This document shows, piece after piece, positions 1-40,789 of a stretch of 64,000 nucleotides of DNA (its first letter is position 1; every line of letters starts with the position of its first letter). Position numbers and translations under genes: made by a program. The stretch spans positions 124,001-188,000 of the forward strand of contig JALLLS010000066.1 of NCBI GenBank assembly GCA_025094145.1, in the 5' to 3' direction. The notes under the pieces were generated by a model, which was not told where the DNA came from, did no database searches, and saw only the letters and a program-made list of their open reading frames with translations. Source of the stretch: Spinellus fusiger (lineage: Eukaryota; Mucoromycota; Mucoromycetes; Mucorales; Phycomycetaceae).

Positions 1-373
1 CCATGGTGAAGCCTCAGTGTTTTTGGATGTCTTTGTGGTGAAGAATCCAGCCCCCCTGCATTGTTTCCTCCACCTTGGTGGAATGTTCACTACCTTAGTG
101 GAAATCTGGGCTAAAGGCCTCCCTCCCTTCTGTTAGTATTGCTGTCAAGAAAGGCATGTGAAGAAGGACTGTCCTTGTTGTCCTGTCTCTGTCCCCTGTT
201 GCCACTGTTGTGGTGTAGCTGGCCACAAGGCCAATGATCAGGAATGCCCCTCTCATCCAGAGACCAGGGCCACTGAGGAAGCCACTGCCAAACAGCATAC
301 CAAGGAGATTGCTGCTGCTGAGGCAGAACGTGCTGCCAAGAAGGCTGCCAAAGAGGTAGCTGCTACCACCAAT

Positions 374-404
<31 letters not shown>

Positions 405-748
405 GGGATTCCATGGACGTGGACATGGACATTGCCCTGACAAAGCAGGTTTTGGGGTCTCTCTCTTAGGAGGAGACTGCCAAATTAAAGGTGTCTATGG
501 AGATAGACAGTGAGATGTACAACGCCTCTAACACCAGCACCAGCAACAGTATGTGGGCTCCCCACAACACTAAGCATTGTCTCCACCTTTGTGAGGCTGT
601 GATTGCCATGCACAAGAATGCCACCACCACTACCAAGACCACCCCCTATGGAATTTGTTCCCAGAAAACTGTGTCTGCCATTCCTTTGCCTGCCTCTTCC
701 TCTTCTTTCACTGCTGACCCCAACAAGGTCAATGCCATGGAATTATGA
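1..748 (+). pseudogene. LINE-1 ORF1 (nucleic-acid-binding protein), partial and frameshifted
   Basis: This is the C-terminal part of a LINE ORF1 protein. About 130-250 encodes two CCHC-like knuckles, with the visible pattern CCPVSVPCCHCCGVAGHKAND. An Ala/Glu/Lys-rich stretch and an Asn/Thr homopolymer follow (about 300-410), then an MDVDMDI acidic segment. A TAG at 467-469 breaks the frame, and coding continues from about 491 to the stop at 746-748. By family knowledge ORF1 packages the LINE RNA. The last codons read NAMEL then TGA, and the ATG of ORF2 overlaps that stop as ATGA (745-748). The equivalent ORF1 of LINE-E is longer and shows the missing N-terminal half. Confidence 0.8.
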
Positions 749-3700
749 GTGTTGGCCCTATCCAATTAGGGACCCTCAATGTGAGAGGGCTCTCCTCACT
801 TGTACATAGTTTTTCTTCTCCCAAGTCACTCCTTATCTGCCATCTTTGTTCCCTCTCCCCTCCTCTGTCACTTCTTGCTTTGCAGGAAACCCACGCTACC
901 CCCAAACACCACTCCTCACTCAACCTTCTCTTCCAAGCCCAGTCTAGTCTATGGACAAAGCACTGTGGCCTTGTCTCTTTTCACACTCATTTACTACTAA
1001 CCCACTTGCACACTTCTGCTGATAATAGGATCCTTGCTGTTCAGGTCTCACACACTGAAAATCGCATTGATCCATTTATTGTAGTTGTAGTCTATGGACC
1101 CACCACATACAGCATCTGCCATACTTTTTTCCTGTCACTTGTTTCAACACTCACCTCTCTTCCAGCCACAACACCAACATTTGTACTAGGTGACTTCAAC
1201 ATCAACCTACACCAATGCACAGCCTTCACCAGTGAATGGCTTGCCTACCAACAACAACACTTTCTGGATACAATTACTGCACCACAAACAACACCCACAC
1301 CCACATACCACAGCAGTTGATACAGAACATGTATTGACTATATTTTCTGGCCCACTGCCATTGTCACCACAGAACCTGAGGTTCTCTTTATCAACCCAAG
1401 TTGGATTGATCACAGCCTTCTTGTGGTTTTGATTCCACTCTTTTGTCCCTCTGGACCTGGTGTCTGGAGATTCAACACAGTTTACTTGAATCACAGTGGC
1501 TTTGATGAGTTGCTGGTGGATCTGTTGGATCATTCTCCTTTTCTTCCTGGGGATGTCTCTGCTGGTTGCTGCTGGGACCTGCTCAAGCAGGCCATGAGGC
1601 ACCTTTCCTTGGCTTATGCCAAGAAGTATCAACGTCACTGTCAATCAGTGGAGTGCCAGCTCAACAGCACCCATACCCAACTTCTCTCTTTGCCACCCTC
1701 CTTGGAGCTCACCAGTGTAGAGGCTGAATTGGCCAACCTCCAGCAAACCCAAACAGCCAACCTTGCCCAGTGTGCTGGTGTCAAGTGGTGTAAGAAAGGC
1801 AAGCAGTCTAATGCCTACTTCTTTAGGACTATCAAAGAACAAAAGACTGCAAAGTCAATTACCTCTCTTAGGGATCCTGTTTCTGGTGACCTTTTCTTGT
1901 CTATGGCAGACATGCTTGGGCATGCTTGCCAATTCTACCAAGACCTATACACAGCAGACCCCATTGACTTTGTCTCTGGTAAGTCCTTGCTCAGCAACAT
2001 CCCTTCTTCTGCTCTTATGTCCACCTCTTCCTCTGCCTCCTTACTCAGCAGGATCACACTGGAGGAGATTTTGTTTATTTTGAAGAATATGCCCAGCAAC
2101 TTGAGCCCTGGTCTGGATGGACTTCCCTATCCCTTGTGGAGAAGGTTGTTTCAACACTCCTTTGTGCAAAAGTTGGCTGAACAGGTGTACCAGGATGCAT
2201 TGTTTGGGGTTTTTCCTCCCTCTTGGTTGGAGATGGTTCTGGTGTTATTACCAAAGGTTGGCAACACTACTCTTCTGAAGAATTGGTGCCCAATCTTGCT
2301 CATCAATTGTGATGCTGTCATGTTCCAACTTTAATCCAAAGATTCTCTATGAATAAGTCAACACAAGTAGTGTGCTGTGACATTCAGAATACTCTATGAA
2401 AGCTTGAGTGCATACAAGTAACATAGTACATCTCTGTATCATCTCACTGATTGGTTGTAACTACAAATCACCTTCTAAAGCTCAGTGTACTATTGGACAC
2501 TTAACAAGAGCCATCTTCATTAATAATCCTAACAGAACAATATTGACCTATCAGAGTCAATTGAGTAAAGACTCATAATAATTAATGGTTTCAATAATGG
2601 AGTGCTTATCCCAGGAACCAACCATAGGGTTGAATATAATAATACTACAACTAAGTAAAACATATGAGCCAACCATAAGGTAGAAATATAGACACTGACC
2701 ATAAGGTAGAATAGATTATCCTACCATAAGGTAGAAGCCACTGAAGGATAAGCACCCACCAAAAGTATAAATAGTGAACCTTTCTTTACTCAATAAAAAT
2801 TATCTTTGTTCAGTCTTGTTAATCTACCTGTCTGAACAATCTCAGATGCTAAGATCTTCACAAAGATTATCACTCTTCAACTTTGGTTCTGCCTGGGCCC
2901 TCTGATTACCCCATTTCAAATGGGATTCATGGCCAACAGATTTATAGCAGACAATGGCTTGCTAATGCACCTTGTCATGCAACATGCCCAATTGGCAAAG
3001 GATCCTGGTGTTACTCTCTTGATCCAGCAAGAGAAGGCATATGATTGGGTACATCCAGGGTACCTTTGTTTGGTGCTCTCTTGCTTTAGTTTTCTGGTGG
3101 TCTTTGTGGACACTGTGTGCTTGCTGTTGTTTTCTACCAAAATTCATGTCAATGTGAATGGTTTTGTGTCCTCCCCCTTCCCCCAGAGTTGTGGGTTGCA
3201 AAAAGGAGATCCTCTCTCTTCTCTCCTCTTTAACCTTGCATTTGAGCCATTGCTTTGCACCATCCTCTCTTCTCCCGCCCTCCAAGGCTTCTGTTTTGGT
3301 GTCTTGTTGTTGCTGTCTCCTGTGGTTCCTCTGGTCTTGCCTCCACCACTGAAGGTGTTGGCTTATGCTGACAATCTTCTGGTGTTCATGTCTGCTCCTG
3401 GTGAGCTTGCTTCTTTTTGTGAGATTCTCTTGGTGTTTGGCCAGGCATCTAATGCTTGAGTCAACCTCAGCAAGACTGTGGCAGTTGCTCTCTCAGAGCA
3501 TTTTGTTTCTGACTGGGGACCTGTGCTGGATGCCTCTGACATTTCATGCTGCCATGATTGTCATGCAGTCCAAGCTGTTTGCTACCTTGGTTTCCCCCTG
3601 TCCTCCCATCCAGCCCAGCTGAATAGTTTCTGTGTGGCCCTGCTGGAGAAGTTGAAGAAGCAGTGTGACACTATGTCACAGTGCCATCTTTCTGTCCAGG

Positions 3701-4151
3701 GAAAGAGCCTTGTGGCTAACTCTGTGCTTCTTAGTACCATTTGGCACGTCCTGTATGTGACTCCTGTTCCTGAGTCTTTCTTCAGGACTGTCTGCCAGCA
3801 TGTTTGCAGATACCTTAACCTTGGTTTTGGTAGTCCTGGGTGGAATCTGCTGTGCCAACCTTGGAGGTGTGGTGGTATTGGCCTTCTTGATTCTGCAAGC
3901 CAGCAAAAGGCTCTCCAGCTATGTTGGATCCTTCCTCTGTTGAAAGGTATTTCTTCTTCCTTTGTACTTGGGTAATTGGATTTTATCCTCCCCTTGTACC
4001 TACAAGCACCCTTGGCCTCTGTTGCTCTTTTGTTTCCTGGCTGCCAGCACAATTGTCTGTCTGCCCTGCACCCAATCCACCATGGTTGCTCCTCTCTGCC
4101 CATGTCTCTTTTGCCACTGCATGTTAGTATGAGTGCTCACACCCTGATAAC
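745..4151 (+). pseudogene. LINE-1 ORF2: endonuclease-reverse transcriptase, broken
   Basis: The endonuclease domain spans about 745-1440. It has an N-terminal LGTLNVRGL motif, the LALQETH catalytic-Glu motif and VLGDFNINL. The fingers and palm begin at about 2050 (NLSPGLDGLPYPLWRRL). After the LTR insertion the palm continues at 2850-3460 with GFMANRFIADNG, LLIQQEKAYDWVHPGYL (first catalytic Asp motif, changed from the LLLDQEKAYD of related copies) and LAYADNLLVF. The last of these has YADN where active enzymes have YADD. Thumb and connection sequence follows to 3975, then frameshifts. The 3' end, including the C-terminal CCHC seen in LINE-E, is missing. Clearly non-functional. Confidence 0.85.
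2316..2844 (+). mobile_element. Solo LTR, family LTR-1, with 5-bp target duplication
   Basis: The 529-bp element starts TGTCATGTTCCAAC and ends AACAATCTCA (TG...CA). It is flanked by direct repeats gatgc (2311-2315 and 2845-2849). Removing it restores the LINE reading frame across the site, as comparison with LINE-E confirms. Inside are a TATA-like AGTATAAATAG near 2763 and an AATAAAA near 2791, in the order expected for an LTR read on the + strand. The family recurs at 4152-8834, 11624-11732, 12139-12720, 14415-15249 and 23333-23858. Confidence 0.9.
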
Positions 4152-8834: not shown

Positions 8835-10070
8835 AGTGTATTAAAATATTATGGATCATAGTGTGGTGGAGCCCATTGGCATTCCATAAGCCTAATGAGA
8901 CTCTATTCATAAGGTGATGTCTTGTGAGGGTTCATCCATGTTCATATCTTCATATGGATGCTTGAATGCAGTTTTTGGATCATCCCTGTCTTCATACACT
9001 TTTCTCTTGTGGGGTTTCTCAGGAATCTGGGACTCACTAATCCAACCCATCTCAGCAAAGATGGTGGCTACAGAGTGTGCAGTGTGGGGTCTCATATATT
9101 CAATGGCCTGTAGGCATCTTTTCTGGTGAATGTGCATGGCTTCCAGTGAGAGGTCTTCCTTTGAGAAGTCCTTGTACTTGGGGTCTGCCAAGTGTTTTGG
9201 GTCTCTGGGATCAAAGTCCTTGTAGATAGTAACACTAGCCTTCTCCAAGAGGGCTGTGACATCTGGTACATACTGTAGGTGAACAAGAAGACTAATGACT
9301 GATCTTGCTGGGAAGAAGACATCCAGGATACATCCAGTGTCAAAGCCAAGGGTTCTGAGAAGCTTATGCACTTCTGGATGGTTCATTTGTCTGCTACATG
9401 GAATATACACATAAGTGTATCCTTTTTCACCTTCCTGGATGGTGAAGGCATGTGAAGCAGCTGCAACATGTCTTGCTGATGTCTGGGGGCATTTGGAGGG
9501 TGCTGGGATGTGTTTCTTGGCCACTGTGGCCCAAGAAGAGTCCTTTACTGTTGGCAGAGAATGGTCTGTGTCAATTTCTCTGCATGTTATCACTTTAGAA
9601 GTGACAGTTGCTGATGCTGCTGGTGTTGGTGCCTTGAGTACACTTATCTCAGCCTGTAAGGCTGTGATGGTTGCCTTGAGCCTCATGTTCTCTTCAATGA
9701 TGGCCTCAAATGCCTCCAGTCTTTGTTGCTGCTGTTGCTGCTGTTCATGTTGCTGCTGTTGCTGGAGCTGTTGTTGGTGTTGCTGCTGCTTTAATTGAGC
9801 TAGTTCTGAGCTCAGAGATTGAAGGGCCAAAACGATCTCAGCCTGGGTTGAAGCATTAAGCTGTTGTTCAGCAGAATTGGCAAACATGGTGTATCTACTG
9901 CTATTCAAGTGGTGTTGACCTGAAACTTGGACAGTAGGTGAGAAGGTGGGTGATGTTGATGGATGGATTGTGATTTTTGATGGATGCAGTGTTTTGGTGA
10001 TGGATGGATGATTTTCAAATTTGGATAGATTTACAATTTTGCTTTTAAAAAAAGTGTTGCTTAGAAGAAA
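8835..10070 (-). mobile_element. LINE-A: 5' part of a coiled-coil-ORF1 LINE, 5' end directed at tRNA-Ile
   Basis: A complete ORF1 and the first about 25 codons of ORF2 (MNRVSLGLWNANGL, start about 8923) survive. The rest was lost at the LTR junction at 8834. The 5' untranslated region is 9888-10070, plus the few bases next to tRNA-Ile after two LTR insertions are removed. It matches LINE-B (5' end at 14115) and is the same broad type as LINE-D. Confidence 0.8.
8907..9887 (-). CDS. LINE-A ORF1, coiled-coil nucleic-acid-binding protein
   Basis: This intact reading frame of 326 codons begins MFANSAEQQLNAS. I chose this ATG because LINE-B has the matching MFSSPAGQQ start region, and because upstream codons run into the separate LTR at 10071-10459. 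N-terminal residues about 25-90 form a Gln-rich coiled coil (LKQQQHQQQLQQQ) with leucine heptads (AFEAIIEENMRLKATITALQAEISVLK). The C-terminal half has a compact domain (YTYVYIPCSRQMNHPEV, LLRTLGFDTGCILDVFFPARSVISLLVH) shared with LINE-B and LINE-D, probably the RNA-binding fold of this LINE group. There is no zinc knuckle. The stop overlaps the ORF2 ATG as ATGA. Probably translated only if the 5' promoter still works. Confidence 0.75.
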   Translation of the reverse strand: MFANSAEQQLNASTQAEIVLALQSLSSELAQLKQQQHQQQLQQQQQHEQQQQQQQRLEAFEAIIEENMRLKATITALQAEISVLKAPTPAASATVTSKVITCREIDTDHSLPTVKDSSWATVAKKHIPAPSKCPQTSARHVAAASHAFTIQEGEKGYTYVYIPCSRQMNHPEVHKLLRTLGFDTGCILDVFFPARSVISLLVHLQYVPDVTALLEKASVTIYKDFDPRDPKHLADPKYKDFSKEDLSLEAMHIHQKRCLQAIEYMRPHTAHSVATIFAEMGWISESQIPEKPHKRKVYEDRDDPKTAFKHPYEDMNMDEPSQDITL

Positions 10071-10459
10071 TGTCCATGCTAGACACTGTCCTGTCAAATA
10101 GAGTAATACTATTGGCTGCACATGTCTTCCCTTTTTGGAACACACATTATCCTGTGTGGATACACACAGATAATATAATATAATTAATAAGATAAATGCT
10201 AATGCAATATATTGTCTTGGCTTTATGTTCTCTTCACAGTGAACATGTTAAGCCAAGACATATATGTGCAATTGTACACTGTAGAATTTAGTATAAATAA
10301 TCAAGTGAATTCAATGAATAAAGATTATCTTCTATCTTCTCTTTTATTCTTCTTCTTTGATCTATGTGGGCTTCAGTCCAAACCAAGAACCACTAGCTAT
10401 TCCACTCTGTGCACATACCTCTGGGCTTAGAACTATTCTGTCCAAATTAGGGAACAACA
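10071..10459 (+). mobile_element. Solo LTR, family LTR-2, copy 1 (upstream of tRNA-Ile)
   Basis: The 389-bp element starts TGTCCATGCTAGACACTG and ends TTAGGGAACAACA. It is flanked by gaaa (10067-10070 and 10460-10463). It contains AGTATAAATAATC and AATAAAGATTATC, a TATA-like and a polyadenylation-like signal in + orientation. A second copy at 16475-16863 differs at only a handful of bases. With the later LTR-3 insertion removed, its end lies 11 nt upstream of the mature tRNA-Ile 5' end. Confidence 0.8.
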
Positions 10460-10464
10460 GAAAG

Positions 10465-11439
10465 TGATGCATGTGGTATTTAGTGATATGTGACAGGTGG
10501 ATAAAAAGATAGAAATAAAGGTTAAAATAAAGATTATCACTGATAATGGAGGGAAATGGGTTTGGGGAAAAAGGGGAATAGTCTCTTCAAAAGAATTGAC
10601 TATCTAAAATAAAATGAAATTTACACCCACAAGTGAATGTAAAAGAGAAAGGGATATTGTAGGATACAAATATAAAAGAAAACAGTGAACAACAAGTTCA
10701 CAAGGAAAACAGTACAATCAAGAATATGCAGAGACTGACTTGTACAAAACACAATGGATAATTCACAAGTAGAAATCAACAAAATGATACACTTGTCTCT
10801 GAAAGATCCAATTAAAACAGAAGAATAAGATAACAAAATAAAAGAATAAGAAATATTCAGAAAGAAGTATCAAGATAGAATTTGACAATGTTTATTAGTG
10901 AAAATAACTAGGAGTATTTATACTAATAGACAATAAGGTAAAAATATAATGAAGTCAATTCATATAAGCATTGTAGAGTGTAGTAATAGTGCAATTCTTA
11001 ATGTGATTATACTATTATGTAGCTTACAATAATATCAATGGGATAATAGAATAAAATAAGATGAAATACACCACAAAATAAGGTTAACACTACTGAATTA
11101 CCAAAAGAATGGTAATTAATAAAATGAAAAGTGTGGACTGAAAAAGGGAAAATATAGAAAAGCATGGTGTAGAAGAAGAAAAGTATGGACTGAAAATAGA
11201 AAAATAGAGAAATGTAGTGCAAAAAAAGAAAATGTGGTGTCAAAAAGGAAAAGAAAAGTGCACACTGAAAAAGGGAAAAAGAAGGAGATAGAAAGACAAG
11301 GAAAACTTAGCAATTCTGTCTTTGCCGGACAGAGGAGAGCTGCAACACACATCATGGTTTGGTACCAAACAAAAGAGAAGCATGGCCCATTTCATCTTCT
11401 TGGTGGTTGAAGCCCACAAAACCCACACACACCGTGTCA
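10465..11439 (-). mobile_element. Solo LTR, family LTR-3, copy A (10 nt upstream of tRNA-Ile)
   Basis: The 975-bp element ends, on the + strand, TGATGCATG... and ...ACCGTGTCA, with a 4-bp duplication aaag (10461-10464 and 11440-11443). It is the near-identical inverted counterpart of 15495-16469. Short reading frames in it are conserved only because the DNA copies are almost identical. Exactly 10 nt (11440-11449) separate it from the first base of tRNA-Ile. The LTR reads away from the tRNA. Confidence 0.88.
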
Positions 11440-11449
11440 AAAGAGAGAT

Positions 11450-11523
11450 GCCCGTTTAGCTCAGTTGGTTAGAGCGTGGTGCTAATAACGCCAAGGTCAC
11501 AGGTTCGACCCCTGTAATGGGCA
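11450..11523 (+). tRNA. tRNA-Ile (AAT)
   Basis: A full cloverleaf can be folded. The acceptor GCCCGTT pairs with AATGGGC, the D-arm is GCTCAGTTGGTTAGAGC, the anticodon stem TGGTG pairs with CGCCA around loop CTAATAA (anticodon AAT), and the T-arm is ACAGGTTCGACCCCTGT. A boxes and B boxes are present. The nearest T-run for polymerase III termination is weak and about 30 bp downstream. Upstream it carries three stacked element insertions: LINE-A, LTR-2 and LTR-3. Confidence 0.95.
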
Positions 11524-11623
11524 GTGTGAAAACTATATTTACTTTCATTGAATTTTGCCTTAAGTATAATGATCACTTTTTTTTTGTTAATTCAGAGTGA
11601 TTTGATTGTTTTGAAAAGAGAAT

Positions 11624-11732
11624 AATGAGACTGAACAATGACATTTTTTTAAGTAAAGAAAGGCTCATTATTTATACTTTTTGTAGGTGCTTATCCTTCA
11701 GTGGTATTCTACCTTTTGGTAGTTAATGATTA
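11624..11732 (-). mobile_element. LTR-1 fragment
   Basis: It carries the LTR-1 signature in reverse (GAGACTGAACAA, then ATTTATACTTTTTG, TGCTTATCCTTCAGTGG and AGTTAATGAT). It is interrupted at a TA by the Tc1 remnant that starts CAGTGGCTTTC. Confidence 0.75.
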
Positions 11733-12138
11733 CAGTGGCTTTCAAAATAATGATGGATTTTTTTCATACCCTGGTATAATTCCACAATAGGAAATACTTA
11801 TTCTTTGTAATAAAAACATACATTAAACACACAGTAGAGACTTGAAAATTGGATGAAGTATAAAGAAGGTCAACAGGATAATAAATGCAGATTTATTGGG
11901 TGGAAACCCTTAATATTTTGTGTTTCCACCCTTGGCCTCTATAACAGCCCTACATCTCTGATGCATGCTGGCAATGAGGGTGTCTGTGGTGTCCTTGGGA
12001 ATATTCTCCCATTCTTCCAACAGAAGCACCCCCAAATCCTGAAGGGAGCTTGCTGGGATTATCCTCTTTCTTATTGCTCTGTCAAGCACCTCCCAAAGAT
12101 GCTCTATTGGGTTCAGGTTGGGGCTTTGTGAGGGCCAC
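11733..12138 (-). mobile_element. Tc1-like transposon remnant (transposase C-terminus plus one terminus)
   Basis: The terminus CAGTGGCTTTC lies at a TA inside the LTR-1 sequence. The antisense frame (11910 to about 12138) encodes the Tc1 C-terminal block WPSQSPNLNPIEHLWEVLD, containing the third catalytic residue region (N-P-I-E), and ends in a typical HQRCRAVIEAKGG tail. The N-terminal two thirds are gone, cut by the LTR beginning at 12139. Confidence 0.85.
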
Positions 12139-12720
12139 TGTTGAGTTCCAACTTCAATCCAAAGATTCTCTATGAATATGTCAACACAAGTAGTGTGCTG
12201 TGACATTCAGAATACTCTATGAAAGCTTGAGTGCACACAAGTAACATAGTACATCTCTGTATCATCTCACTGATTGGTTGTAACTACAAATCACCTTCTA
12301 AAGCTCAGTGTACTATTGGACACTTAACAAGAGCCATCTTCATTAATAATCCTAACAGAACAATATTGACCTATCAGAGTCAATTGAGTAAAGACTCATA
12401 ATAATTAATGGTTTCAATAATGGAGTGCTTATCCCAGGAACCAACCATAGGGCTGAATATAATAATACTACAACTAAGTAAAACATATGAGCCAACCATA
12501 AGGTGGCAGTTATTAATACTACTATAAGGTAGTAATATAGACACTGACCATAAGGTCAAAGAGAGTGAATTCTACCATAAGGTAGAATAGATTATCCTAC
12601 CATAAGGTAGAAGCCACTGAAGGATAAGCACCCACTAAAAGTATAAATAGTGAACCTTTCTTTACTCAATAAAAATTAACTTTGTTCAGTCTCATTAATC
12701 TACCTGTCCAAACAATCTCA
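12139..12720 (+). mobile_element. LTR-1, complete copy without target duplication
   Basis: It starts TGTTGAGTTCCAAC and ends AACAATCTCA. It contains AAAGTATAAATAG near 12637 and CAATAAAAATTAAC near 12666. Left of it is the Tc1 remnant (flank gccac), right of it is LINE-B ORF2 (flank gggag). The flanks do not match and belong to two different elements. Confidence 0.85.
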
Positions 12721-14115
12721 GGGAGGGCATAGGGATGTGGGTAACATGGTAGGGACAGGAGGGAGAAACAAGAGCACACATACCAAGTGAGCCACAGTAG
12801 CTGTTCTCAACAGGCTTGCCATAGGTGTGGAACTGTGTCCAGGAAGTAGGGAGGTGGGAGGGAGAGAGGAGCCAGGTTTCTGTGATAAAGAGCATAGTAA
12901 AGGAGTGTGAGTGTGTCATAATGTCATATACCATAGACTGTTGAAGTCCATTGGCATTCCATAGGCCTATAGAGACTCTATTCATATTGGTGTTTGTTGT
13001 TGGAGGACTCAGACATGGCAACAGAGCTTCTTCTGCTCACTTGGAAGGCATTTGCTGGGTCATCTCTGTCAATGTATCCCTTGTTGGTTGGCTTGGGGGG
13101 CATCTGCTCTTCACTGATCCAGCCATTGGCTACAAAAGCAGCAGCAACAGAAAAAGCAATGTGGGGGCGCATGTACTAGATAGCCTGCATGCATCTGTTC
13201 TCTTGGAGTCTGGCTGCCTCAATGCACATCTGCTCAACATTGAAGGTGGCATATTTTGGGTCTGCCAGATGCTTGGGGTCCAGAGGGTCAAAGTTCTTGT
13301 AGATATCTACCTTGGCCTTATTCAAGACTGCAGTAAGAGACTCAAGATACTGGACATGGACCAAAAGACCAAGAACAGAATGGGCAGGGAAACACACATC
13401 CAGGATTCTACCTGTTTCCAGGCCAAGGGTTCTCAGGAGACGTCTTGCCTCTGGGCGGTTCATGCATCTGCCTCTTGGAATGTACACATAAGTGTAACCT
13501 TTAGGGCCTTCTTGGATGGTGAAGGCATGTGCAGCAGATTCCACTCTCCTAGTTGAAGGTGCTGGGCGGGTCTTTTTGGCTACAGTAGCCCATGTGGAGT
13601 CCTTGGCTGTCTTCTCAGCCTGTTGGTGGTTCTTTGGTGCCTGTGTCACCTCTTGTATCACAGGAGTTGCCTTATTAGTCAAGGCAGCAAGCTTTGCCTC
13701 AAGGGCTGCCACAGTCTCTCTCAGCTGCTTGTTTTCTTCCATAATGGCCTCAAAGGCCTCAAGTCTCTGCTTCTGATGGGTGTGCTCAGAAGCCATTTGA
13801 GCAAAGCTCTGTTGGAGTGACGTCACTGCTGAGATAAGTTGAGCTTTGGTGGTGGTGGTGGTGACATTAGCCAAAAGGTGTTGTTGTCCTGCTGGAGAAG
13901 AGAACATGGTGGATCTGGTCAAGTTTGAGAGCTGGAGGTCTGAAACTTTTGTAGAAGATAGTTGGGAGATGGGGGAAGATGGATTGATGATGGATGCAGA
14001 TGGATGCAGATGGATGCAGATGGATGCAGCTTTTTGGAGACGGATGGACGTTTTTGAATTTTTGGATTGAACTTACGAATTTTAAAAAAAAGTGATCTTT
14101 AGCAGAAAGAGAAGT
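12721..14115 (-). mobile_element. LINE-B: 5' part of a coiled-coil-ORF1 LINE abutting tRNA-Asp
   Basis: ORF1 (12978-13922) and the first about 88 codons of ORF2 (start 12985, MNRVSIGLWNANGLQ, with LFITETWLL endonuclease motif) remain. The element is cut at 12720 by an LTR-1. Its 5' untranslated region runs to 14115, the base before tRNA-Asp. It contains GGATG/GATGCA tandem repeats near 13980-14030. The last bases AGCAGAAAGAGAAGT align with the LINE-A end at tRNA-Ile. Confidence 0.82.
12978..13922 (-). pseudogene. LINE-B ORF1 with one nonsense codon
   Basis: This frame is colinear with LINE-A ORF1: an N-terminal coiled coil (QKQRLEAFEAIMEENKQL), a basic linker, and the conserved YTYVYIPRGRCMNRPEARR and LLRTLGLETGRILDVCFPA block. 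A TAG at 13176-13178 falls where LINE-A encodes Glu (AIEYMRPHTAHSV), so a single G-to-T change in GAG explains it. The frame then continues YMRPHIAFSVAAAF to TAG at 12978. The ORF2 ATG (12983-12985) overlaps the end of ORF1. Confidence 0.8.
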
Positions 14116-14187
14116 TCTTCGATAGTATAGTGGTAAGTATCCCCGCCTGTCACGCGGGAGACCCGGGTTCAATTCCCGGTCGAAGAG
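14116..14187 (+). tRNA. tRNA-Asp (GTC)
   Basis: The acceptor TCTTCGA pairs with TCGAAGA, and the discriminator is G. The anticodon arm CCGCCTGTCACGCGG gives anticodon GTC, and the T-arm is CCGGGTTCAATTCCCGG. A TTTTT terminator follows directly at 14188. LINE-B sequence reaches the base immediately 5' of the gene. Confidence 0.95.
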
Positions 14188-14414
14188 TTTTTATATTTTA
14201 GAAACGTTTTAACAGATATAAGACAACTTTATTTTGTTAATCAAACAACTTTAATTCTACTATGGTGATAGGCAGCAATCATAAAGTTGACAAAGTAAAG
14301 GAAGAAGAAGTGGTATAAGCTCTCTGAGCCATGTTTTATTTTCATATAATATATCAAAAAGTATCTTTTCTACTCTAAATCTTTCAAGCCAAGTTTACTT
14401 AGTTGTAATGACTA

Positions 14415-14812
14415 TGTGATTATTCAGACAAGCAGAAAATAACAAGACTGAACAAAGATAATTTTTATTATGTGAAGAGTGGTTCATTATTTATACTTTT
14501 TGTGAGTGCTTATCCTTCAGTAGAATTCTACCTTTTTGTAGTTAATGATTAGTCCATGGCATAGCTTATTGATAGATGCAACTGTATGGTTGGTGTAGAT
14601 GATTTATCCTATGGTAGTTTACATAGGTGTAGCTTTATGGTTGGTGTAGGTGTTCTACCTAATGGTAGACTACATGTTGGAGCCTTATGGTTGGTTCATT
14701 GAATAAGCACACCATTATAGAGCCATCTATTATGTCTTCACTTTTAATTGCCTTTGATAGGTCTTATTTAATCCACTAAGGATTTATAGATGAAGGCAGC
14801 TCATTAAGTGTC
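14415..14812 (-). mobile_element. LTR-1 copy, 3' portion (split by LTR-4)
   Basis: It starts TGTGATTATTCAGAC on the + strand and carries GTTCATTATTTATAC and the repeated TATGGTTGGTGTAG motifs of this subfamily. It is interrupted at AAGTGTC by LTR-4 and resumes at 15067. It supplies the paralogous empty site for the TIR element at 4544-8646. Confidence 0.8.
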
Positions 14813-15066
14813 TGTGTTGTAATTATGAAGACAACGTTAGCAGTCACAGACTGATTAAGTTGTCTCCTTTCTACAACATAATTCATAGTTAAGACACTGC
14901 ATATTAAAGTCTACTGTACAGGCCATTATTATCAAGCATCCTAAAACAGTAATAGATTATTCTCAATAACACAGTCACCTGTCTATTTATACTAAATAGA
15001 CATGTAAAATTGTTTTAATAAAAGTATCTTGTTTTGAGTCTGATTAATTCCCTTTTGAATTTAACA
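14813..15066 (+). mobile_element. Solo LTR, family LTR-4, copy 1
   Basis: The sequence of about 254 bp starts TGTGTTGTAATTATG and ends TTTGAATTTAACA, inside an LTR-1. It has CTATTTATACTAAATAG and TTTAATAAAAGTATC (TATA-like and polyadenylation-like signals). The reverse-orientation counterpart is 22269-22524. Target duplication is at most gtc, so exact ends are uncertain by a few bases. Confidence 0.7.
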
Positions 15067-15249
15067 GTCTGATAGTAAATTGAGCTTAGAAGGTTGATTT
15101 GTAGTTACAACCAATCAGTGAGATGATACAGAGATGTACTATGTTTCTTGTGTGCACTCAAGCTTTCATAGAGTATTCTGAATGTCACAGCATACTACTC
15201 ATGTTGACTAATTCATGAAGAATCTTTGGATTGAAGTTGGAACACAACA
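15067..15249 (-). mobile_element. LTR-1 copy, 5' portion (continuation of 14415-14812)
   Basis: It resumes GTCTGATAGTAAATTGAGC and ends GGAACACAACA, the reverse complement of the LTR-1 start. Its layout equals 8647-8834. Confidence 0.8.
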
Positions 15250-15401
15250 GGGGTCTTAGTGAAGATGATCATTAATTTGAATGGTGTAGACATTAGGAAA
15301 AAAAGAGATAGTGTGTTATTTTCTTGTATAGGAAGAAGCTCAGAAATTTAAAAATTCCAGTCTCTTATGAAGGTCACTATAAATGTGAAAACAACTTAAA
15401 A

Positions 15402-15484
15402 TGGTAACTGTGAGATTCGAACTCACGCCTCTTGCGAGACCGCAACTTGAGTGCGGCGCCTTAGACCAACTCGGCCAAGTTACC
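15402..15484 (-). tRNA. tRNA-Leu (CAA)
   Basis: This is a class II tRNA on the - strand. The acceptor GGTAACT pairs with AGTTACC, the anticodon stem CCGCA pairs with TGCGG around CTCAAGT (anticodon CAA), and the variable arm is long. The T-arm is GTGAGTTCGAATCTCAC. No intron is needed to fold it. TTTT follows directly 3' (TACCATTTTAAG on the - strand). Ten nt upstream of its 5' end begins LTR-3 copy B. Confidence 0.93.
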
Positions 15485-15494
15485 AACTATGGTT

Positions 15495-16469
15495 TGACAC
15501 GGTGTGTGTGGGTTTTGTGGGCTTCAACCACCAAGAAGATGAAATGGGCCATGCTTCTCTTTTGTTTGGTACCAAACCATGATGTGTGTTGCAGCTCTCC
15601 TCTGTCCGGCAAAGACAGAATTGCTAAGTTTTCCTTGTCTTTCTATCTCCTTCTTTTTCCCTTTTTCAGTGTGCACTTTTCTTTTCCTTTTTGACACCAC
15701 ATTTTCTTTTTTTGCACTACATTTCTCTATTTTTCTATTTTCAGTCCATACTTTTCTTCTTCTACACCATGCTTTTCTATATTTTCCCTTTTTCAGTCCA
15801 CACTTTTCATTTTATTAATTACCATTCTTTTGGTAATTCAGTAGTGTTAACCTTATTTTGTGGTGTATTTCATCTTATTTTATTCTATTATCCCATTGAT
15901 ATTATTGTAAGCTACATAATAGTATAATCACATTAAGAATTGCACTATTACTACACTCTACAATGCTTATATGAATTGACTTCATTATATTTTTACCTTA
16001 TTGTCTATTAGTATAAATACTCCTAGTTATTTTCACTAATAAACATTGTCAAATTCTATCTTGATACTTCTTTCTGAATATTTCTTATTCTTTTATTTTG
16101 TTATCTTATTCTTCTGTTTTAATTGGATCTTTCAGAGACAAGTGTATCATTTTGTTGATTTCTACTTGTGAATTATCCATTGTGTTTTGTACAAGTCAGT
16201 CTCTGCATATTCTTGATTGTACTGTTTTCCTTGTGAACTTGTTGTTCACTGTTTTCTTTTATATTTGTATCCTACAATATCCCTTTCTCTTTTACATTCA
16301 CTTGTGGGTGTAAATTTCATTTTATTTTAGATAGTCAATTCTTTTGAAGAGACTATTCCCCTTTTTCCCCAAACCCATTTCCCTCCATTATCAGTGATAA
16401 TCTTTATTTTAACCTTTATTTCTATCTTTTTATCCACCTGTCACATATCACTAAATACCACATGCATCA
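15495..16469 (+). mobile_element. Solo LTR, family LTR-3, copy B (10 nt upstream of tRNA-Leu)
   Basis: The 975-bp element starts TGACACGGTG and ends CATGCATCA, with 4-bp duplication ggtt (15491-15494 and 16470-16473). AGTATAAATACTCC (about 16011) followed by AATAAAC fits an LTR promoter read on the + strand, away from tRNA-Leu. The intervening 15485-15494 is 10 nt, identical to the spacing of copy A at tRNA-Ile. Confidence 0.9.
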
Positions 16470-16474
16470 GGTTT

Positions 16475-16863
16475 TGTCCATGCTAGACACTGTCCTATCA
16501 AATAGAGTAATACTATTGGCTGCACATGTCTTCCCTTTTTGGAACACACATTATCCTGTGTGGATACACACAGATAATATAATATAATTAATAAGATAAA
16601 TGCTAATGCAATATATTGTCTTGGCTTTATGTTCTCTTCACAGTGAACATGTTAAGCCAAGACATATATGTGCAATTGTACACTGTAGAATTTAGTATAA
16701 ATAATCAAGTGAATTCAATAAATAAAGATTATCTTCTATCTTCTCTTTTATTCTTCTTCTTTGATCTATGTGGGCTTCAGTCCAAACCAAGAACCACTAG
16801 CTATTCCACTCTGTGCACATACCTCTGGGCTTAGAACTATTCTATCCAAATTAGGGAACGACC
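16475..16863 (+). mobile_element. Solo LTR, family LTR-2, copy 2 (11 nt upstream of tRNA-Arg)
   Basis: This is the same 389-bp element as 10071-10459, starting TGTCCATGC and ending GGGAACGACC (final A changed to C). No duplication is seen because LTR-3 copy B later inserted at its left edge. Eleven nt (16864-16874, TAAGAGAGATG) separate it from tRNA-Arg. It reads toward the tRNA, as copy 1 does. Confidence 0.78.
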
Positions 16864-16874
16864 TAAGAGAGATG

Positions 16875-16947
16875 GGGACTATGGCCCAATGGACAAGGCG
16901 TCTGACTACGAATCAGGAGATTCCAGGTTCAACCCCTGGTAGTCTCA
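16875..16947 (+). tRNA. tRNA-Arg (ACG)
   Basis: The acceptor GGGACTA pairs with TAGTCTC, the anticodon stem TCTGA pairs with TCAGG around CTACGAA (anticodon ACG), and the T-arm is CCAGGTTCAACCCCTGG. A TTTTTT terminator follows immediately (16948). LINE-C starts a short distance downstream. Confidence 0.94.
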
Positions 16948-23858: not shown

Positions 23859-25151
23859 GCTGGGACAATTGAAAAAGGTCTTGGCACATTTTAGGAACAG
23901 GCACAAGACAGATGAGTAAAATTTCAAGACTACTTTAAAACTATTTGAGATTCACAGCCAAGACTATTTTTCTTTTCTTTTACTCAATAGTTTTGATTGA
24001 ACAAGCAATTTTGTTTATTCCATACCAACCAAACCAGTAAGAACAGTTTGTAGATTAATAGACTACTTCTGATAAAGAGATGGCAGAGAGAGAAGAAATG
24101 CAAGATATAAATTATGGTCATGCTCAGTAGAGTGTAATGAACATTGCTACTAAAGATAGCATGAATGACAATGAGTTGGAAGAAATACAAGACAACTTAT
24201 AGTTTGATACTTGAGAAGGAAGACTTTCAGCTAGTTCAAATAAAGTACAAAAGCTACTCTCATGCTCAAATTGCTGGCTTCATTCACAGTTTGCAGGAAG
24301 AGGGTTGTCTTGTGCCTGAAGCTGCAAAGAAGGCAAGTATTCCTCATAGCACAGCCAATAGAATGTGAAATGAATTTAACAAGAGTGGTGGTAAAGAGCT
24401 TCCTGGGTTCAAAAGAAGCTCAAAACATGACAATTGTGGAAGACCACCTATCTTGATCAAAGAATATATTCAGTTCTTGACCAAATATATTGATTCAAAT
24501 ACTGTATCAACTGTGGATCTAGCCCATGATGAGTTGTTTAAAGCTTTCCCAGGTTTAGGAATCTTGGTCAATGCAGTTTATAAGCATATGAGAACAAAAT
24601 ATAAAGAGAATAATGTTGATTACCAGAAGAGTTGTGTTTTTATAGATAAAGCAGGTTTCAATCTACCTACCATGCAAAATAGAGCTTGGGCCCCCAAAAA
24701 TAAACCTGCCAAGGTTAAGGTCCCAACTCAAAAGGGCACAAGTATTACTATCATGGGATGTATAGGTAGTGCTGGTATTATTGATATATCCAAGAGAAAT
24801 CTGGGTGTGTATAAGAAAAGAAAAGTTCCTGGAACATCCAAGACTGTAAAAACAGAAAAAGGAACTAATACAGATCATATTCTTATCTTCTTGAAGAGTA
24901 TGTTGGATGCAATGGATAAAGAAGGAATGAAAGGATAGTGTGTTGTGATGGACAATGTAAGAAGTCATGACAACAGCCAAGTACCTGCTTACATTGAAGC
25001 AAGAGGTTATAAACCTTGGTTTTTGCCCCTTTACTCACCATTCCTCAATCCTATTGAAGAGTTTTGGTCCAAGGCAAAACAATGTATTAAAAGACATCCT
25101 CTAGACTCTCATGATACTTTGACCCCTTGAATAATGACTGCTTGTCAGGCA
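23859..25151 (+). mobile_element. DDE (Tc1/mariner-group) transposon, copy 1
   Basis: It starts GCTGGGACAATTG directly after LTR-1. It is nearly identical to the reverse complement of about 39474-40763, and similarity ends near GCTTGTCAGGCA at 25151. The termini past that point differ between the copies, so the right end is not certain. Confidence 0.78.
24165..25130 (+). pseudogene. DDE transposase, copy 1, two in-frame stops
   Basis: One continuous frame carries an N-terminal helix-turn-helix (SYSHAQIAGFIHSLQEEG, AAKKASIPHSTAN) and a GRPP linker. The DDE domain has FIDKAGFN as the first Asp, VVMDNVRSH as the second and LNPIEEFWSKAK as the Glu. The frame is stopped by TGA at 24366-24368 (NRM-stop-NEFNKSGGKELPG) and TAG at 24936-24938 (KGMKG-stop-CVVMDN), then a tandem stop at the end. 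This is the typical arrangement of fungal Tc1/pogo-like elements. The catalytic residues are intact but the protein cannot be made in one piece. Confidence 0.85.
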
Positions 25152-25602
25152 CGGTTTTTCATGACTCAAATGAGTGAATTGATATTGTTTTATTATATGT
25201 CTATTTTAAATAACAATAATTCACAAAGGGCAATGACAGTTGATCTGGGAAAGGGTGAGCAAATAATAATATCTTGTGGTATCAAAATTGAAGAAAATGG
25301 CAACCCTAGAGTTCTTTCTTTAAGGAAAAGTTAATTAGGCAATAGATCTAGCAGTATTATTTTTCCAGTTCAAAGATAACACCAGGTTTTTGCAAATGCA
25401 TCTGATGGCTACTACGCTACTTTTATAATCTTAAGACAGGAGAAACTCATCTCACAGTCAACTATAATTTCACTAAGGATATAGCCAATGGCCACTACCC
25501 TTGATAGCCAATGGTCTAATCAAGCAATTCCTACAATACTGCTGAGTCATTCATTAGAGAAAAATAAATAAATAAATAACAATAATATCTAAGAAATCTT
25601 TG

Positions 25603-25732: not shown

Positions 25733-25820
25733 ATTGGTATTGATTGGTATTGATTGGTATTGATTGGTATTGATTGGTATTGATTGGTATTGCTTGGTAT
25801 TGATTGGTATTGCTTGGTAT
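25733..25820 (+). repeat. Tandem 10-bp repeat (TTGGTATTGA)n
   Basis: About nine units of TTGGTATTGA with two TTGGTATTGC variants, just inside the MULE left inverted repeat and directly before the LINE-F target duplication. Confidence 0.95.
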
Positions 25821-25836
25821 TGAATGACAAAAGAGT

Positions 25837-27474
25837 CAGAAAGCTGTTGGAGTTTTGTCTGACTCCTTCCTTGTCACACTTTGCTCCTGTGCCAGACCTT
25901 GCACAAGGTGGTTTCCATCCTAGAAAAAGTCCCTTGGACCAGGCTATGTGTCTGCATGACCTTATGCATGCTCACTACCTACAACATCATCACTCTCCTG
26001 TTGTGGCTCTTCTGGACATTTCGTCAGCCTATGACAAGGTGGATAGACATGTGGTCTGGCAAGCCCTGTGTTCCTTTGGTACTCCTCCTGCTCTTCTGTC
26101 ATTCATGTCACACTTGTTTGACGAGGTGACACTATCAGTACTAGTCTCTAACCACTCCTCCATTCCTTTTTCCCCGGTGACTGGTGTGCTCCAAGGGTCT
26201 GTCCTGAGCCCAAGCTTGTACTCTTTGTACATCAACTCTCTGACTGTCTTGCTTTGTTGTGCTGCTAGGCCAACAACTCACTCTGTGTCTCTTCCCTCTG
26301 CTTCTGCTCCTGCTCCTGTGGTGGTGAACTCTCTGCTCTTTGCAGATGATATAGCTGTCTTTGGGGACAAACAGTCTGTACAAGACATGCTGGCTTTGGC
26401 AGAGCAGCATTTGTATTCTCTGGGCTATTGTTGGAACCCTACCAAGTGTATAGTGTTGAATCATCCTTCACTAACATCTTCTACCTCTACCAACTTCAGA
26501 TTCAAGCTGTATGGTGTCCCACTCCCATATGCTGAAGAGCTCACCTACCTGGGTCTTCAGTTCTGCAAAAAGGGTCTTTCTGCTTCTGCTCTAGTCTCTT
26601 CTTGGTCCCCTGGTGTGATGAAGGTGATGGCTATTCTCAACTTGATTGGTGTCAATTGTGCTGGCTTCTCTCTACATCTCTGCTCCCACATCTACAAAAC
26701 TTTTGTGAGGCCAAAGTTTGAATATGGCTTGGCCATTTCCTTTTTGAAGGCTGCTGACCTCAAGGCCCTTGAAAAGCTCCAGGACAGGTGTCTCCGTCTC
26801 TTGGTGGGTGGTCACCCAACGTCCTCAACCACAGTCCTCAAGCACATTATCAGCCTGCCATCAATGAGGCATAGGGTGAATGTCCTGGTCACTTGTTCTG
26901 CTTTGCACTTTTGGTCCCTGCCTTCTTCTTGTCTTCTTGTCCTGCTCTCTGCTTCCTTGCCAATGGCCAGAAGGACATCCTACCTGGTGAAGAACCCACT
27001 ATACCTTGCTCTCCCAGACCCTGTTCCTGCAAAGGACAGTCAACTCAAGCTGTTCTTTGAGCAGTACCGCCAGCAAAAGTTTGACCTGTTTCTTACCTCC
27101 ACCAATATGGTGCTGATCAAGCATTGCCATCCCTTGTTAGGAATTAATCCTGTCCTGCTGGTGCCAGCCTCTAGAGCTGAGAGAAGCCATTTGGTCCATT
27201 GGCATCTTGGGTGGCTCCCTGGAAAGCCCAGAGAATGTTCCTGTGGTCTTGACCATACCTCACGCTGTCACCTTGTGGAGTGTCCTCTTGTTCCTGCCTC
27301 CTTGTGGTCTCTGCTGAGGTCTACCCAATTGACTTTTGCCTGAACAGCCTATCAACACGTTGTGGTGCTCCCTGTCCTGTGTGGTGGCCCACTTTGCTTG
27401 CCTTGCTCTGGCACATAGAGACACTATGTTGCCCTGACCGCTTCTTCCCTGAAGACTTGTCTCCTGGTGCTCTT
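25837..27474 (+). pseudogene. LINE-F reverse transcriptase fragment
   Basis: The frame to 27343 carries DLAQGGFHPRKSPLDQAMCL, VALLDISSAYDKVDRHVVW (first catalytic Asp), GVLQGSVLSPSLYSLYIN, LLFADDIAVFG (FADD active site) and thumb sequence GLQFCKKGLSASAL. The C-terminal zinc motif CSCGLDHTSRCHLVEC follows at about 27238-27285. A one-base shift near 27300 moves the remainder (VYPIDFCLNSL) into another frame, ending at 27477. The N-terminal endonuclease and fingers are absent because of 5' truncation during insertion. Confidence 0.87.
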
Positions 27475-27752
27475 TGACTGGCTTTTGGTTCCTCCTCTAA
27501 ACATGGATGAAAGCTGTTCTGTCTGTCTTCTGGTTGCTTGCCCCCACTGCCAAAATTGTTAGTGCATGCTGGGTGGTCTACTTCCAGATCAGTAGTTTAG
27601 TTAGTAGTTTAGTATATCCTATCATTAGTTAGCCTTTTTTTATCATTTTAGTCTTAGATGTTTTTTGTTTCTTGTCATTTCTTTTTCTGTGGAGTCACTG
27701 TACTTTTTAAAGCCTGTGAAATATACTCCTTTAATAAAAATAATGTTTAACC
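25837..27752 (+). mobile_element. LINE-F: 5'-truncated LINE with 16-bp target duplication
   Basis: It is bounded by TGAATGACAAAAGAGT at 25821-25836 and 27753-27768. The element starts in the reverse transcriptase at RKLLE and ends TTTAATAAAAATAATGTTTAACC without a poly(A). It is the same clade as LINE-D. Confidence 0.93.
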
Positions 27753-31803: not shown

Positions 31804-34800
31804 TCAAGACACCATGGACTGCAGAGCCACCACCAAAGAAGAAGCCTTACTTGCCACAACACCAGGGAGAAAAGGAGCAGAGTCAAAAATAAAAGCCCAG
31901 TGGGCACACCAAATTGCCTGCACTGTAGCAGCCACAACCAGAACACCAAGGTCAGCATCTGGCAGGGAGGGAGGACAGCAAGAAGACATCAAACATTGGA
32001 CATCCTTGAGATGCCAAGAAGGACACCAACAAGAGAGAACAACACTCCACACATGCCTCTTCTCAGAACAGAGAAACAGAAAATGATCCTGGTCTTCCAC
32101 CAAAGCAGAACAGAACAAGCAAAGGGGAGAAGGAAATTAGACAGGCAGGACATGGTGCATTCTGCTGCAAGTGGGCAAACGACCCCAAAGAGCTTTCCAC
32201 TAAACAGTGCAAGTGTTGTGAGGGATCCAAAGATGCCAGAAACACTTTCACACAACTGCAGAAAGAGAATGAGAAGACAAAGGAGGCAGCAAGTGGTGGC
32301 AAAGAGAAGAAGTGTGGGCCTTGACCAGACTTTGCTTGTTAATTTGTATGATCTCCAAAAGAGAAGAAAAGCCAGTGGATGGTGGAGAGGTGGAAGATGC
32401 CAGCACAAAGCCAGACAAGAACCACAGCCAGAGCACAATTTGCCCAGAGTCCAGAGCACAGAAGAAAGAAAGGATGCGATACTTTGCAAAACCCAATTGC
32501 GTGATATGCTTCCAGCATAGATGACCAAAGCTATCCAGTTCGAAAGCATGGAAGACAAACACCTTGGCAAAGTTGAGCTTGGGTGCAATAAAAGGTGGAA
32601 GGAAACCCCAAACAGTGGACAGAGGCAATGTTAGCAGGGTAGGAGCATCCATACTAACATGCATTGGGAGAGAAGACACAGGCAAAGAAGAGCAACCACA
32701 ATAAATTGGGCACAGAGAAGATGGACAGTTACACAGATGGCAAGGAAACAGAAGAGCAACAGAGGCAGAAGGTGCTTGGAAGTACAGAGGTAGAAGAAAA
32801 TCTAAGTAGCTACATACAAAAGAAGTAGTAATAGTAGACAAAGAAGAAAAAGAAGAAGAGTTGGTTAAGAGAGGAAGGATCCAATGTAATTGGAGAGCCT
32901 TTTGCTGACTGGCAGGGTCTAACAAACCAATGCCACCATGCCTACAAGGTTGGCACAACAGATCCCACCCAGGACTACCAAAACCAAGGTTAAGGTATCC
33001 ACAAACAAGTCCACAGACAGCAGCAAAGAAAGAGATGGGAGCAGAGGTCACATATAGGACATGCCAGAGAGTGCTGAGGAGCAAGGAATTGGCCACAAGG
33101 CTCTTACCCTAAACAGAAAGGTGATGCTACAACATGATGTTGCATTGCCTCTCTAACTTCTCCAGAAGAGCCAAACAGAAGTGATCCAACTGGGTTGGGT
33201 GTGATGACAGAGGAAAGCCAAGGTAACAGACAGCATGGACTGCATGACTATCATGGCAACATGATATGTCAGAGGCATCCAGCACAGGACCCCAGTCAGG
33301 AACAAAATGCCCTGAAAGAGCAACTGTGACAGTCTTGCTGAGGTTGACCCAAGCATTAGATGCCAGGCCAAACACTGAGAGAATCTCAAGAAGAGAAGCA
33401 ATCTCACCAGGAGACAAAAGGAAAACCAGAAGGTCATCAGCATAAGCCAATGCCTTCAAGGGAGAAGACAGAACCAGAAGAGCAATGGAGGACAACAATG
33501 GAGGAACACCAAAACAGAAGCCTCAAAGAGAAGAGGAAGCAAGAATGGTGTGGAGCAATGGCTCAAAGGCAAGGTTAAATAAAAGAGGGGAGAGAGGATC
33601 TCCTTGTTGCAACCCACAACCCTGAGGGAACAGGGAGGACACAAAGCCATTCACATTGATGTGAATCTTAGTTGAGAAAAACAACAAGCACACAGTGTTT
33701 ACAAAGACCACAGGAAAACCAAAACAAGAGAGCACCAAACAAAGATACCCTGGATGTACCCAATTGTATGCCTTCTCTTGATCCAGCAAGAGAGCAACAC
33801 TAGGATCCTTTGCCAATTGGGCATGTTGCATAACAAGGCACATTAGCAAACCATTGTCAGCAATAAGACAATTGGCCATGAAACCCGTTTGATAGGGAGT
33901 AATCAGAGGACCAAGACAAAACCAAAGTCAAGAAGTGATGATCTTGGTGAAGATCTTAGCATCACAGTTGATAAGTAAAATGGGACACCAATTCTTCAAA
34001 AGAGAAGGGTCACCAGCCTTTGGTAAAAGTACCAACACCATTTCCAACCAAGAAGAAGGAAAAACACCAAACAATGCATCCTGATACACCTGTTGAGCCA
34101 ACTCTTGCACAAAGGAATGTCTGAACAACCTTCTCCACAAGGGATAGGGAAGTCCATCCAAACCAGGGCTCAAGTTGCTGGGTGCATTGTTCAAAATAAA
34201 CAGGATCTCTTCAAGAGTAATCTTGTCAAGCAGAGAGGCAGAAGATGAAGCAGACAAAAGAGCAGAAGAAGGAATGTTGTTGAGCAAAGACTCACCAGAG
34301 ACAAAGTCAATGGGGTCCGCAGTGTACAGGTCTTGGTAGAATTGGTGTGCATGCCCAAGCATATCTGCCATTGAGAAAAAAAGGTCACCAGAAACAGGAT
34401 CCTGAAGTAAGGTAATGGACTTTGCAGTCATTCTTTGTTTGATAGTCCTAAAAAATAGGAATTGGATTGCTTGCCCTGTTCACACCACTTGACACCAGCA
34501 TGCTGGGCAAGATTGGTGGTTTGGGTCTGCTGTAAATTGGCAAGGTCAGCCTCAACACTAGAAAGATCCAGAGAGGGCAACAAAGAAAGAAGTTGGGTGC
34601 AAGTATGGTTGAGCTGATGCTCCACTGACCAACAGTGACGTTGATACTTCTTGGCATAGGCCAGGGAAAGATGCCTGATGGCTTGCTTGAGCAAATCCCA
34701 GCAACAACCAGCAGAGACATCCACAGGAAGAAGAAAGGAAGCACAATCCAGCAGATCCACTAACAAATCCTCAAACTCATTGTGATCCAGGTACACCATG

Positions 34801-35912: not shown

Positions 35913-35944
<32 letters not shown>

Positions 35945-39470: not shown

Positions 39471-39473
39471 GAC

Positions 39474-40763: not shown

Positions 40764-40789
40764 AGCCAAGTCTTTTATTCGTCTCAAAT

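Follow-up and report, generated by a model that had tools for sequence, protein, structure and literature searches.

A 64,000-nt stretch of the genome of Spinellus fusiger (Mucorales; GenBank assembly GCA_025094145.1, contig JALLLS010000066.1, positions 124,001 to 188,000; hereafter the window) contains two copies of a 975-bp long terminal repeat (LTR), termed LTR-3, each lying just upstream of a tRNA gene. LTR-3 is very probably the solo LTR of a Ty3/Metaviridae element whose integrase likely docks on TFIIIB and inserts 8-11 bases before the mature tRNA, with a long interspersed nuclear element (LINE) and its short interspersed nuclear element (SINE)-like partners joining base 15 of the same genes. 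Of the 31 LTR-3 copies in the genome that extend to the tRNA-side end, 30 lie at a tRNA gene, at the 5' remnant of one, or at LTR stacks ending in either, a result that together with a broken gag-pol parent supports the proposal of the initial annotation that a polymerase III-directed integrase gives position-specific integration.

LTR-3 copies and their distance to tRNA genes

The first window copy (10465..11439, minus strand) has the start of its unique 3' region (U3) at 11439, adjoining tRNA-Ile(AAT) (11450..11523, plus strand; Rfam 65.3 bits, also called by ARAGORN), and the second (15495..16469, plus strand) has its U3 start at 15495, adjoining tRNA-Leu(CAA) (15402..15484, minus strand; Rfam 58.9 bits). 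The two solo LTRs are inverted relative to each other and about 4 kb apart. Rfam placed the mature 5' ends at 11450 (plus) and 15484 (minus), giving a gap of 10 nt at both loci; the ARAGORN calls were one base longer, and gaps were counted from the Rfam ends. Perfect 4-bp target duplications were borne out at both copies, with aaag on the far side (10461..10464) and on the tRNA side (11440..11443, positions -10 to -7) of the first, and ggtt on the tRNA side (15491..15494) and the far side (16470..16473) of the second. That the LTRs read away from the tRNA was likewise upheld by an internal region found at C146. There, a primer-binding-site-like sequence and then gag and pol come after the far LTR end, and an LTR end of the tRNA-adjoining kind has a purine-rich tract (GTGTGAGGGGG) before it.

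A search of the assembly (38.08 Mb, 197 contigs) identified at least 49 LTR-3 pieces from 40 scored of 53 candidates. Proportions were calculated for the 31 copies with a match stopping no more than 34 nt short of the tRNA-side end, including L027 and L038 where the match begins 34 nt in. Pieces left out were those with a match short of this end (L031, L033, L044, and both head-to-head pieces of L028), the first piece of L043 that is the 3' LTR of the C146 element, and pieces better matched to the LTR-3b family (L019 2975-3420, L030 7780-8574, L040, and L041). Head-to-head copies of LTR-3 and LTR-3b were observed at L028 4477-5756 and at C10:82657-83640 and 85984-86967.

Direct neighbors of an intact tRNA gene accounted for 14 of the 31 copies, all in one orientation and with gaps of 8-11 nt (the window pair, L013, L015, L016, L018, L019, L021, L029, L034, L037, L038, the second piece of L043, and L047), and the genes concerned include those for Ile, Leu, Asn, Ser, Pro, Tyr, and Arg. 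Nine further copies were separated from the tRNA or its remnant by other LTRs (L017, L020, L023, L026, L030, L032, L035, L036, and L046), the inclusion of L046 relying on an unread stretch between its LTR-C and a junction pattern match at C126:239185. In six copies the sequence next to LTR-3 was the 5' fragment of a tRNA running into a LINE or SINE-like 3' end, the remnant being recognizable at L014, L024, L025, and L042 (0-3 mismatches to a tRNA start from this genome) and uncertain at L027 and L045. The genome-wide tabulation of distance and orientation was therefore favorable to the targeting claim, and the contrary pattern of copies mostly far from tRNA genes with random spacing was not seen, L039 alone being without a tRNA. 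Under random insertion the chance of at least 14 of 31 copies falling in a 4-nt, one-orientation window is approximately 6e-50, a value that counts all 1,446 first-look tRNA candidates as genes and treats the copies as independent, although a few of them are related. Targeting of 5S genes by LTR-3 was unsupported, as none of the 11 scored 5S genes lay near an LTR-3 piece (47 of 763 first-look candidates scored).

A distribution of this kind might also arise if insertion were untargeted and selection or recombination had cleared all copies except those before tRNA genes. The host genome is compact, and regions upstream of tRNA genes are known as harmless sites from the available portions of two accounts (PMC5911963; PMC5006619). 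Such harmless regions would span hundreds of bases, though, and precision of 8-11 nt with an almost uniformly one-way orientation is unlike a population of survivors; mariner-like elements, LINEs, and other repeats also persist elsewhere in the window, making survival alone an extremely improbable explanation.

An identical 4-bp duplication flanked 11 of the 18 testable LTR-3 copies, and nine or more distinct duplicated sequences were represented (AAAG, AACC, CAAC, ACAC, AAGT, CCTA, TCAT, TTCT, and AAAC). If the integrase contacts its target as Ty3 does, this variety would agree with TFIIIB rather than DNA sequence as the requirement. An integrase reading a DNA motif in the flank instead of polymerase III factors could draw on the gaaagagagat flank that corresponds to the LINE 5' end, is common to several loci, and has LTRs landing in it; many landing sites lack this motif yet keep the distance to the tRNA, and recognition of a motif is considered very unlikely.

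Other LTR families at the same site

The same upstream site is used by the families LTR-3b (48 pieces in the genome), LTR-B (at least 79 pieces from 40 scored of 125 candidates), and LTR-C. This was assessed from the tRNA side with 63 genes chosen by Rfam score alone (63 scored of 1,446 candidates), the upstream regions of which were compared by BLAST. A retroelement end adjoined 56 of the 63, comprising LTR ends at 40 (LTR-B at 22, LTR-C at seven, LTR-3 at six, and LTR-3b at five), SINE-like ends at 11, and LINE 5' ends at five. Seven genes had no match within 60 nt upstream, but LINE sequence separates two of these (L014 and L026) from a matching remnant farther upstream, and at a third (C120:380616) the identical 15 nt recur as a remnant at a distance of 2.7 kb upstream, such that at least 58 of the 63 genes carry a retroelement and three or four show none. 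The adjusted gap was 7-12 nt for the 33 LTR-3, LTR-3b, and LTR-B ends in the sample; gaps for plus copies of LTR-C read higher because the LTR-C query ended a few bases short. U3 pointed towards the tRNA in five of six LTR-3 ends in this sample and in 14 of the 15 tabulated from the LTR-3 side, and LTR-B was mostly in the opposite orientation to LTR-3 (17 of 22). No parent element was recovered for LTR-B or LTR-C, and the RVT_2 (Ty1/copia) profile had no match in this genome but had none in the control genomes either.

Insertions by these families form rows, as in L035 with LTR-3, LTR-C, LTR-B, and tRNA-Lys in succession. At the window tRNA-Ile gene LTR-3 is nearest, followed by an LTR-B copy (10071..10459, plus strand) and then by a LINE open reading frame (ORF) 1 with the LINE 5' end (8907..10070, minus strand; identified from the ORF and the 5' end sequence). 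This LTR-B is read as the older insertion because it now lies behind LTR-3. A second LTR-B copy (16475..16863, plus strand) is situated approximately 11 nt upstream of tRNA-Arg(ACG) (16875..16947, plus strand; Rfam).

Parent element and proposed mechanism

The element at C146 consists of a partial LTR-3, a primer-binding-site-like sequence, gag, protease, reverse transcriptase, RNase H, integrase, and, beyond the purine-rich tract, the beginning of a second LTR. Domain matches included Retrotrans_gag (1.8e-6), protease (4.1e-9), RVT_1 (1e-15), RNase H (4.9e-27), and the integrase zinc domain (Integrase_H2C2, 6.8e-11) and core (rve, 5.4e-12), plus a Ty3_capsid match in gag (6.2e-5) below the profile cut-off. 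The element is broken by stops and frame changes, and its domains were read as pieces between stops. Ty3 was the best match in PDB for the RNase H piece (8e-12), and the LTR-3 ends TGACACGG..CATGCATCA are of the TG..CA type. By the gag-pol domain set and the RNase H closest to Ty3, LTR-3 is placed, from sequence comparison, as a Ty3/Metaviridae element. Relatives of its pol numbered 21 matches, and all nine that were named came from Mucor, Syncephalastrum, Rhizopus, Absidia, or Circinella; these genera, together with Phycomyces and Apophysomyces, belong to the Mucorales. A primer tRNA for the primer-binding-site-like sequence was looked for and was not identified. The element sought, with an integrase between two LTR-3 copies, was found at C146, but in broken form with its own 5' LTR partial.

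In the proposed mechanism, the integrase would dock on the TFIIIB complex of tRNA genes by analogy with Ty3 and would cut the two strands 4 bp apart, at or close to where transcription is predicted to start. Recombination between the LTRs would then remove the internal part and leave a solo LTR. Two or more further LTR families use the same site, and the LTR nearest the tRNA would be the youngest in a stack because each new insertion at a fixed site would push earlier ones away.

Several observations weigh against targeting by a Ty3-type integrase. The gap to the tRNA is not constant, and the exact 10-nt spacing of the initial annotation stood for the window pair but not as a general rule, given that the 14 direct neighbors span 8-11 nt. 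Identical orientation held for the pair and for all 14 but failed for L022, where a reversed copy lies 11 nt before tRNA-Thr (1/31), and at L039 (1/31) there was no tRNA and an Rfam scan for another polymerase III gene was empty. Non-identical duplications flanked seven of the 18 testable copies. The LTR-3 and tRNA tallies rest on scored subsets (40/53 and 63/1,446 candidates, respectively), and four of the 16 LINE and SINE matches in the tRNA sample are the sources of the queries. For the element itself, the integrase-core piece matched retroviral integrases (1.9e-6) better than Ty3 (1.7e-4) in PDB, and this integrase was present in the assembly only at C146 (100%) and C88 (75%), both broken, with three further matches at 30-33% identity. 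Its link to LTR-3 relies on the one degenerate element at C146, and no intact parent with two intact LTRs was found in the assembly. The chromodomain is the part that docks Ty3, and no Chromo match at an E-value of 0.1 occurred in six C-terminal pieces. For Ty3 itself the chromodomain was found only by structure, according to the part of the publication that is available (PMC8632968).

Copies are also not all independent, some loci being duplicated, which bears on whether LTR-tRNA units were spread by segmental duplication with a spacing inherited from few ancestral insertions. Both tRNA-Met genes in L020 share one LTR-3b junction, C110:492357 and C110:494842 mirror each other, and the window LTR-3 copies are identical with LTR-B neighbors that differ at only 5 of 389 columns. 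Such spreading is nevertheless judged highly unlikely as the general explanation: tRNA isoacceptors, 4-bp duplications, and flanks differ between loci, and the relative order of LTR-3 and LTR-B differs between the two window loci.

No same-strand pair at 5-7 kb from a search with the LTR-start pattern withstood scrutiny; at one mismatch or fewer there were 71+66 matches, a total not exceeding the 83+55 of the reversed control, and leads were taken from exact matches only. C88 was examined as a full LTR-3 element and rejected after it proved to be a mixed stack. Two contigs end inside LTR-3 sequence (C88:1-14 and C79:1-650), and intact elements may therefore be absent from the assembly.

Probable insertion of LINE and SINE-like elements inside tRNA genes

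A second type of insertion lies within the tRNA genes. LINE and SINE-like elements probably insert at base 15 (the CTCAG end), and a duplication starting from base 1 would rebuild a complete tRNA gene each time; together with Ty3-type insertions at about -10, the same gene could be hit repeatedly and each locus would become a dated stack that keeps its gene. The junction of CTCAG with NTTAAAGATT had 39 exact occurrences in the genome, its N always being G or T, and 58 occurrences at one mismatch or fewer compared to 13 for the reversed control. Among 20 of the 39 junctions inspected, 16 carried the first 15 nt of a tRNA from this genome with at most two mismatches, and shifting the frame by 5 nt as a control reduced the matches to tRNA starts to zero of 20. 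Of the remainder, L108 and L110 resemble a tRNA-Ala start with no such gene seen, and L106 and L107 are not tRNA. The remnant is the exact first 15 nt of a known downstream gene at C58, C61, C120, and C30, differs from the downstream gene by 1-2 positions at C20, C74, C110 (twice), C125, and C114, and at C59 differs from the neighboring tRNA. In L091, L095, L098, L104, L105, and other remnants, most differences from the living gene are CpG to TpG or CpA, a pattern that would be consistent with decay by cytosine methylation.

The 23-base LINE tail occurred at 20 sites with three or fewer mismatches (control, two) and was joined to CTCAG (at most one mismatch) at 18 of these, including all eight exact tail sites. 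The sites outside the CTCAG list were C132:200103 and C161:151728, the latter being the tail at 27728-27750 of a window LINE copy (25784..27750, plus strand) that is joined to ..CATTCAG with no tRNA recognized. Inserts in L014, L025, L026, and L027 match LINE ORF2 in antisense, and the ORF1 at 8907..10070 has 95% identity over 243 amino acids to part of the L025 stretch beyond its tRNA remnant. Another LINE ORF1 with 5' end (13176..14115, minus strand; ORF and sequence comparison) abuts tRNA-Asp(GTC) (14116..14187, plus strand; Rfam). The window LINE ORFs had RVT_1 matches, with Exo_endo_phos in one. Among the best 12 of 35 matches to the window LINE protein, the five named were all Circinella, Phycomyces, Apophysomyces, or Absidia, and named matches lower in the 35 were from animals, Leishmania, and others. 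The SINE-like elements share the LINE tail and have a tRNA-like head as judged by eye only.

On the most economical interpretation of these junctions, the sense strand would be cut after base 15 and would prime reverse transcription, as in target-primed reverse transcription, so that the LINE 3' end would join base 15 in the A box (..CTCAG). The other strand would be cut at the first base of the tRNA, and gap filling would copy bases 1-15. The expected result of duplicating these bases is a complete tRNA gene at the LINE 5' end and a 15-nt remnant upstream. The tRNA gene left behind an A-box element likely works.

Age of the window pair

The near identity of the two window copies had been taken to mean that both insertions are recent. 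The identity itself was confirmed (0 differences in 975), but identity alone is no proof of recency, as gene conversion would have the same effect on this inverted pair, whose members lie about 4 kb from each other. In the 17 near-full-length copies, the next closest of the 136 LTR-3 pairs differed at 29 of 948 positions and the median was 6.3%; the claim of recency is weakened because no pair other than the window pair differs by less than 3.1%. On the other side, the duplications of both copies are perfect and each copy is the LTR nearest its tRNA, as expected of young insertions, and a source missing from the assembly may have given rise to a younger burst. Gene conversion is accordingly a serious candidate that we rate at slightly less than an even chance; it and recent insertion from an unassembled source both fit the identity of the pair.

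Further repeats in the window include an inverted repeat of 1,303 nt (23859-25161 and 39464-40766; 99% complementary, 14 kb apart), inverted arms at 1-3941 and 32867-36308 that are 76-90% complementary as if one long element were present twice in opposite directions, and an array of 12- and 18-base units at 43776-44290.

Comparison with known systems and implications

Ty3 of Saccharomyces cerevisiae shares with LTR-3 a Metaviridae gag-pol and base-precise insertion just upstream of tRNA genes, joining at -6/-2 relative to the transcription start in the available text (PMC8632968). LTR-3 differs by its 4-bp duplication compared to 5 bp in Ty3, a strong orientation bias, an LTR of approximately 970 bp, a very distant host, a chromodomain not seen in the six pieces, and the lack of 5S targets among those scored. 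For yeasts and Dictyostelium, Table 1 of a review available in part (PMC5911963) gives Ty3-type elements that lie upstream of tRNA genes. The systems compared were Tj1 (Schizosaccharomyces japonicus), Beta/Tca8 (Candida albicans), Ylt1, Tyl3, and Tyl6 (Yarrowia), and DGLT-A (Dictyostelium), as described in accessible sections of PMC4600332; their hosts are ascomycetes or an amoeba, whereas the present host belongs to the Mucorales and stacks several LTR families per gene. Closer to S. fusiger, Ty3-like LTR elements of Rhizopus oryzae were described in 2009 as having a strong insertion-site preference and often co-localizing with tRNA genes (PMC2699053). Co-localization of Ty3-type elements with tRNA genes is therefore already known from Rhizopus, a genus included among the pol relatives of LTR-3, and LTR-3 adds another such element; position, orientation, and duplication were measured here and are not given in the portion of that text available (PMC2699053).

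For the LINE insertions, the nearest case is that of the dictyostelid non-LTR elements TRE5, TRE3, and NLTR-A, LINE-type elements aimed at tRNA genes, with insertion 2-6 bp upstream in the part of the source at hand (PMC5006619). Those elements stay outside the gene, whereas the LINE described here joins base 15 inside it with a duplication restoring bases 1-15. Dada DNA transposons do insert inside tRNA genes, at TAGCTC of the A box in Perkinsus in the available text (PMC3706591), but use a DDE transposase with a 6-7 bp duplication and leave the gene cut, and the LINE probably restores it. No report of a LINE or SINE joining base 15 and restoring the tRNA gene was found in a literature search that largely excluded subscription journals and preprints.

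With LTR-3, Ty3-type targeting measured at base precision would reach a fungal lineage distant from the yeasts, and the stacks would give the insertion order at each tRNA gene. Genomic islands enter bacterial tRNA genes and restore them. If the interpretation of the LINE and SINE-like insertions is true, a retrotransposon can enter a tRNA gene and, solely through where its target duplication lies and how long it is, leave the gene whole, and would be a eukaryotic counterpart of these islands. How target duplications of this kind are determined would then become open to test, as would the reason for which tRNA genes withstand repeated insertion.

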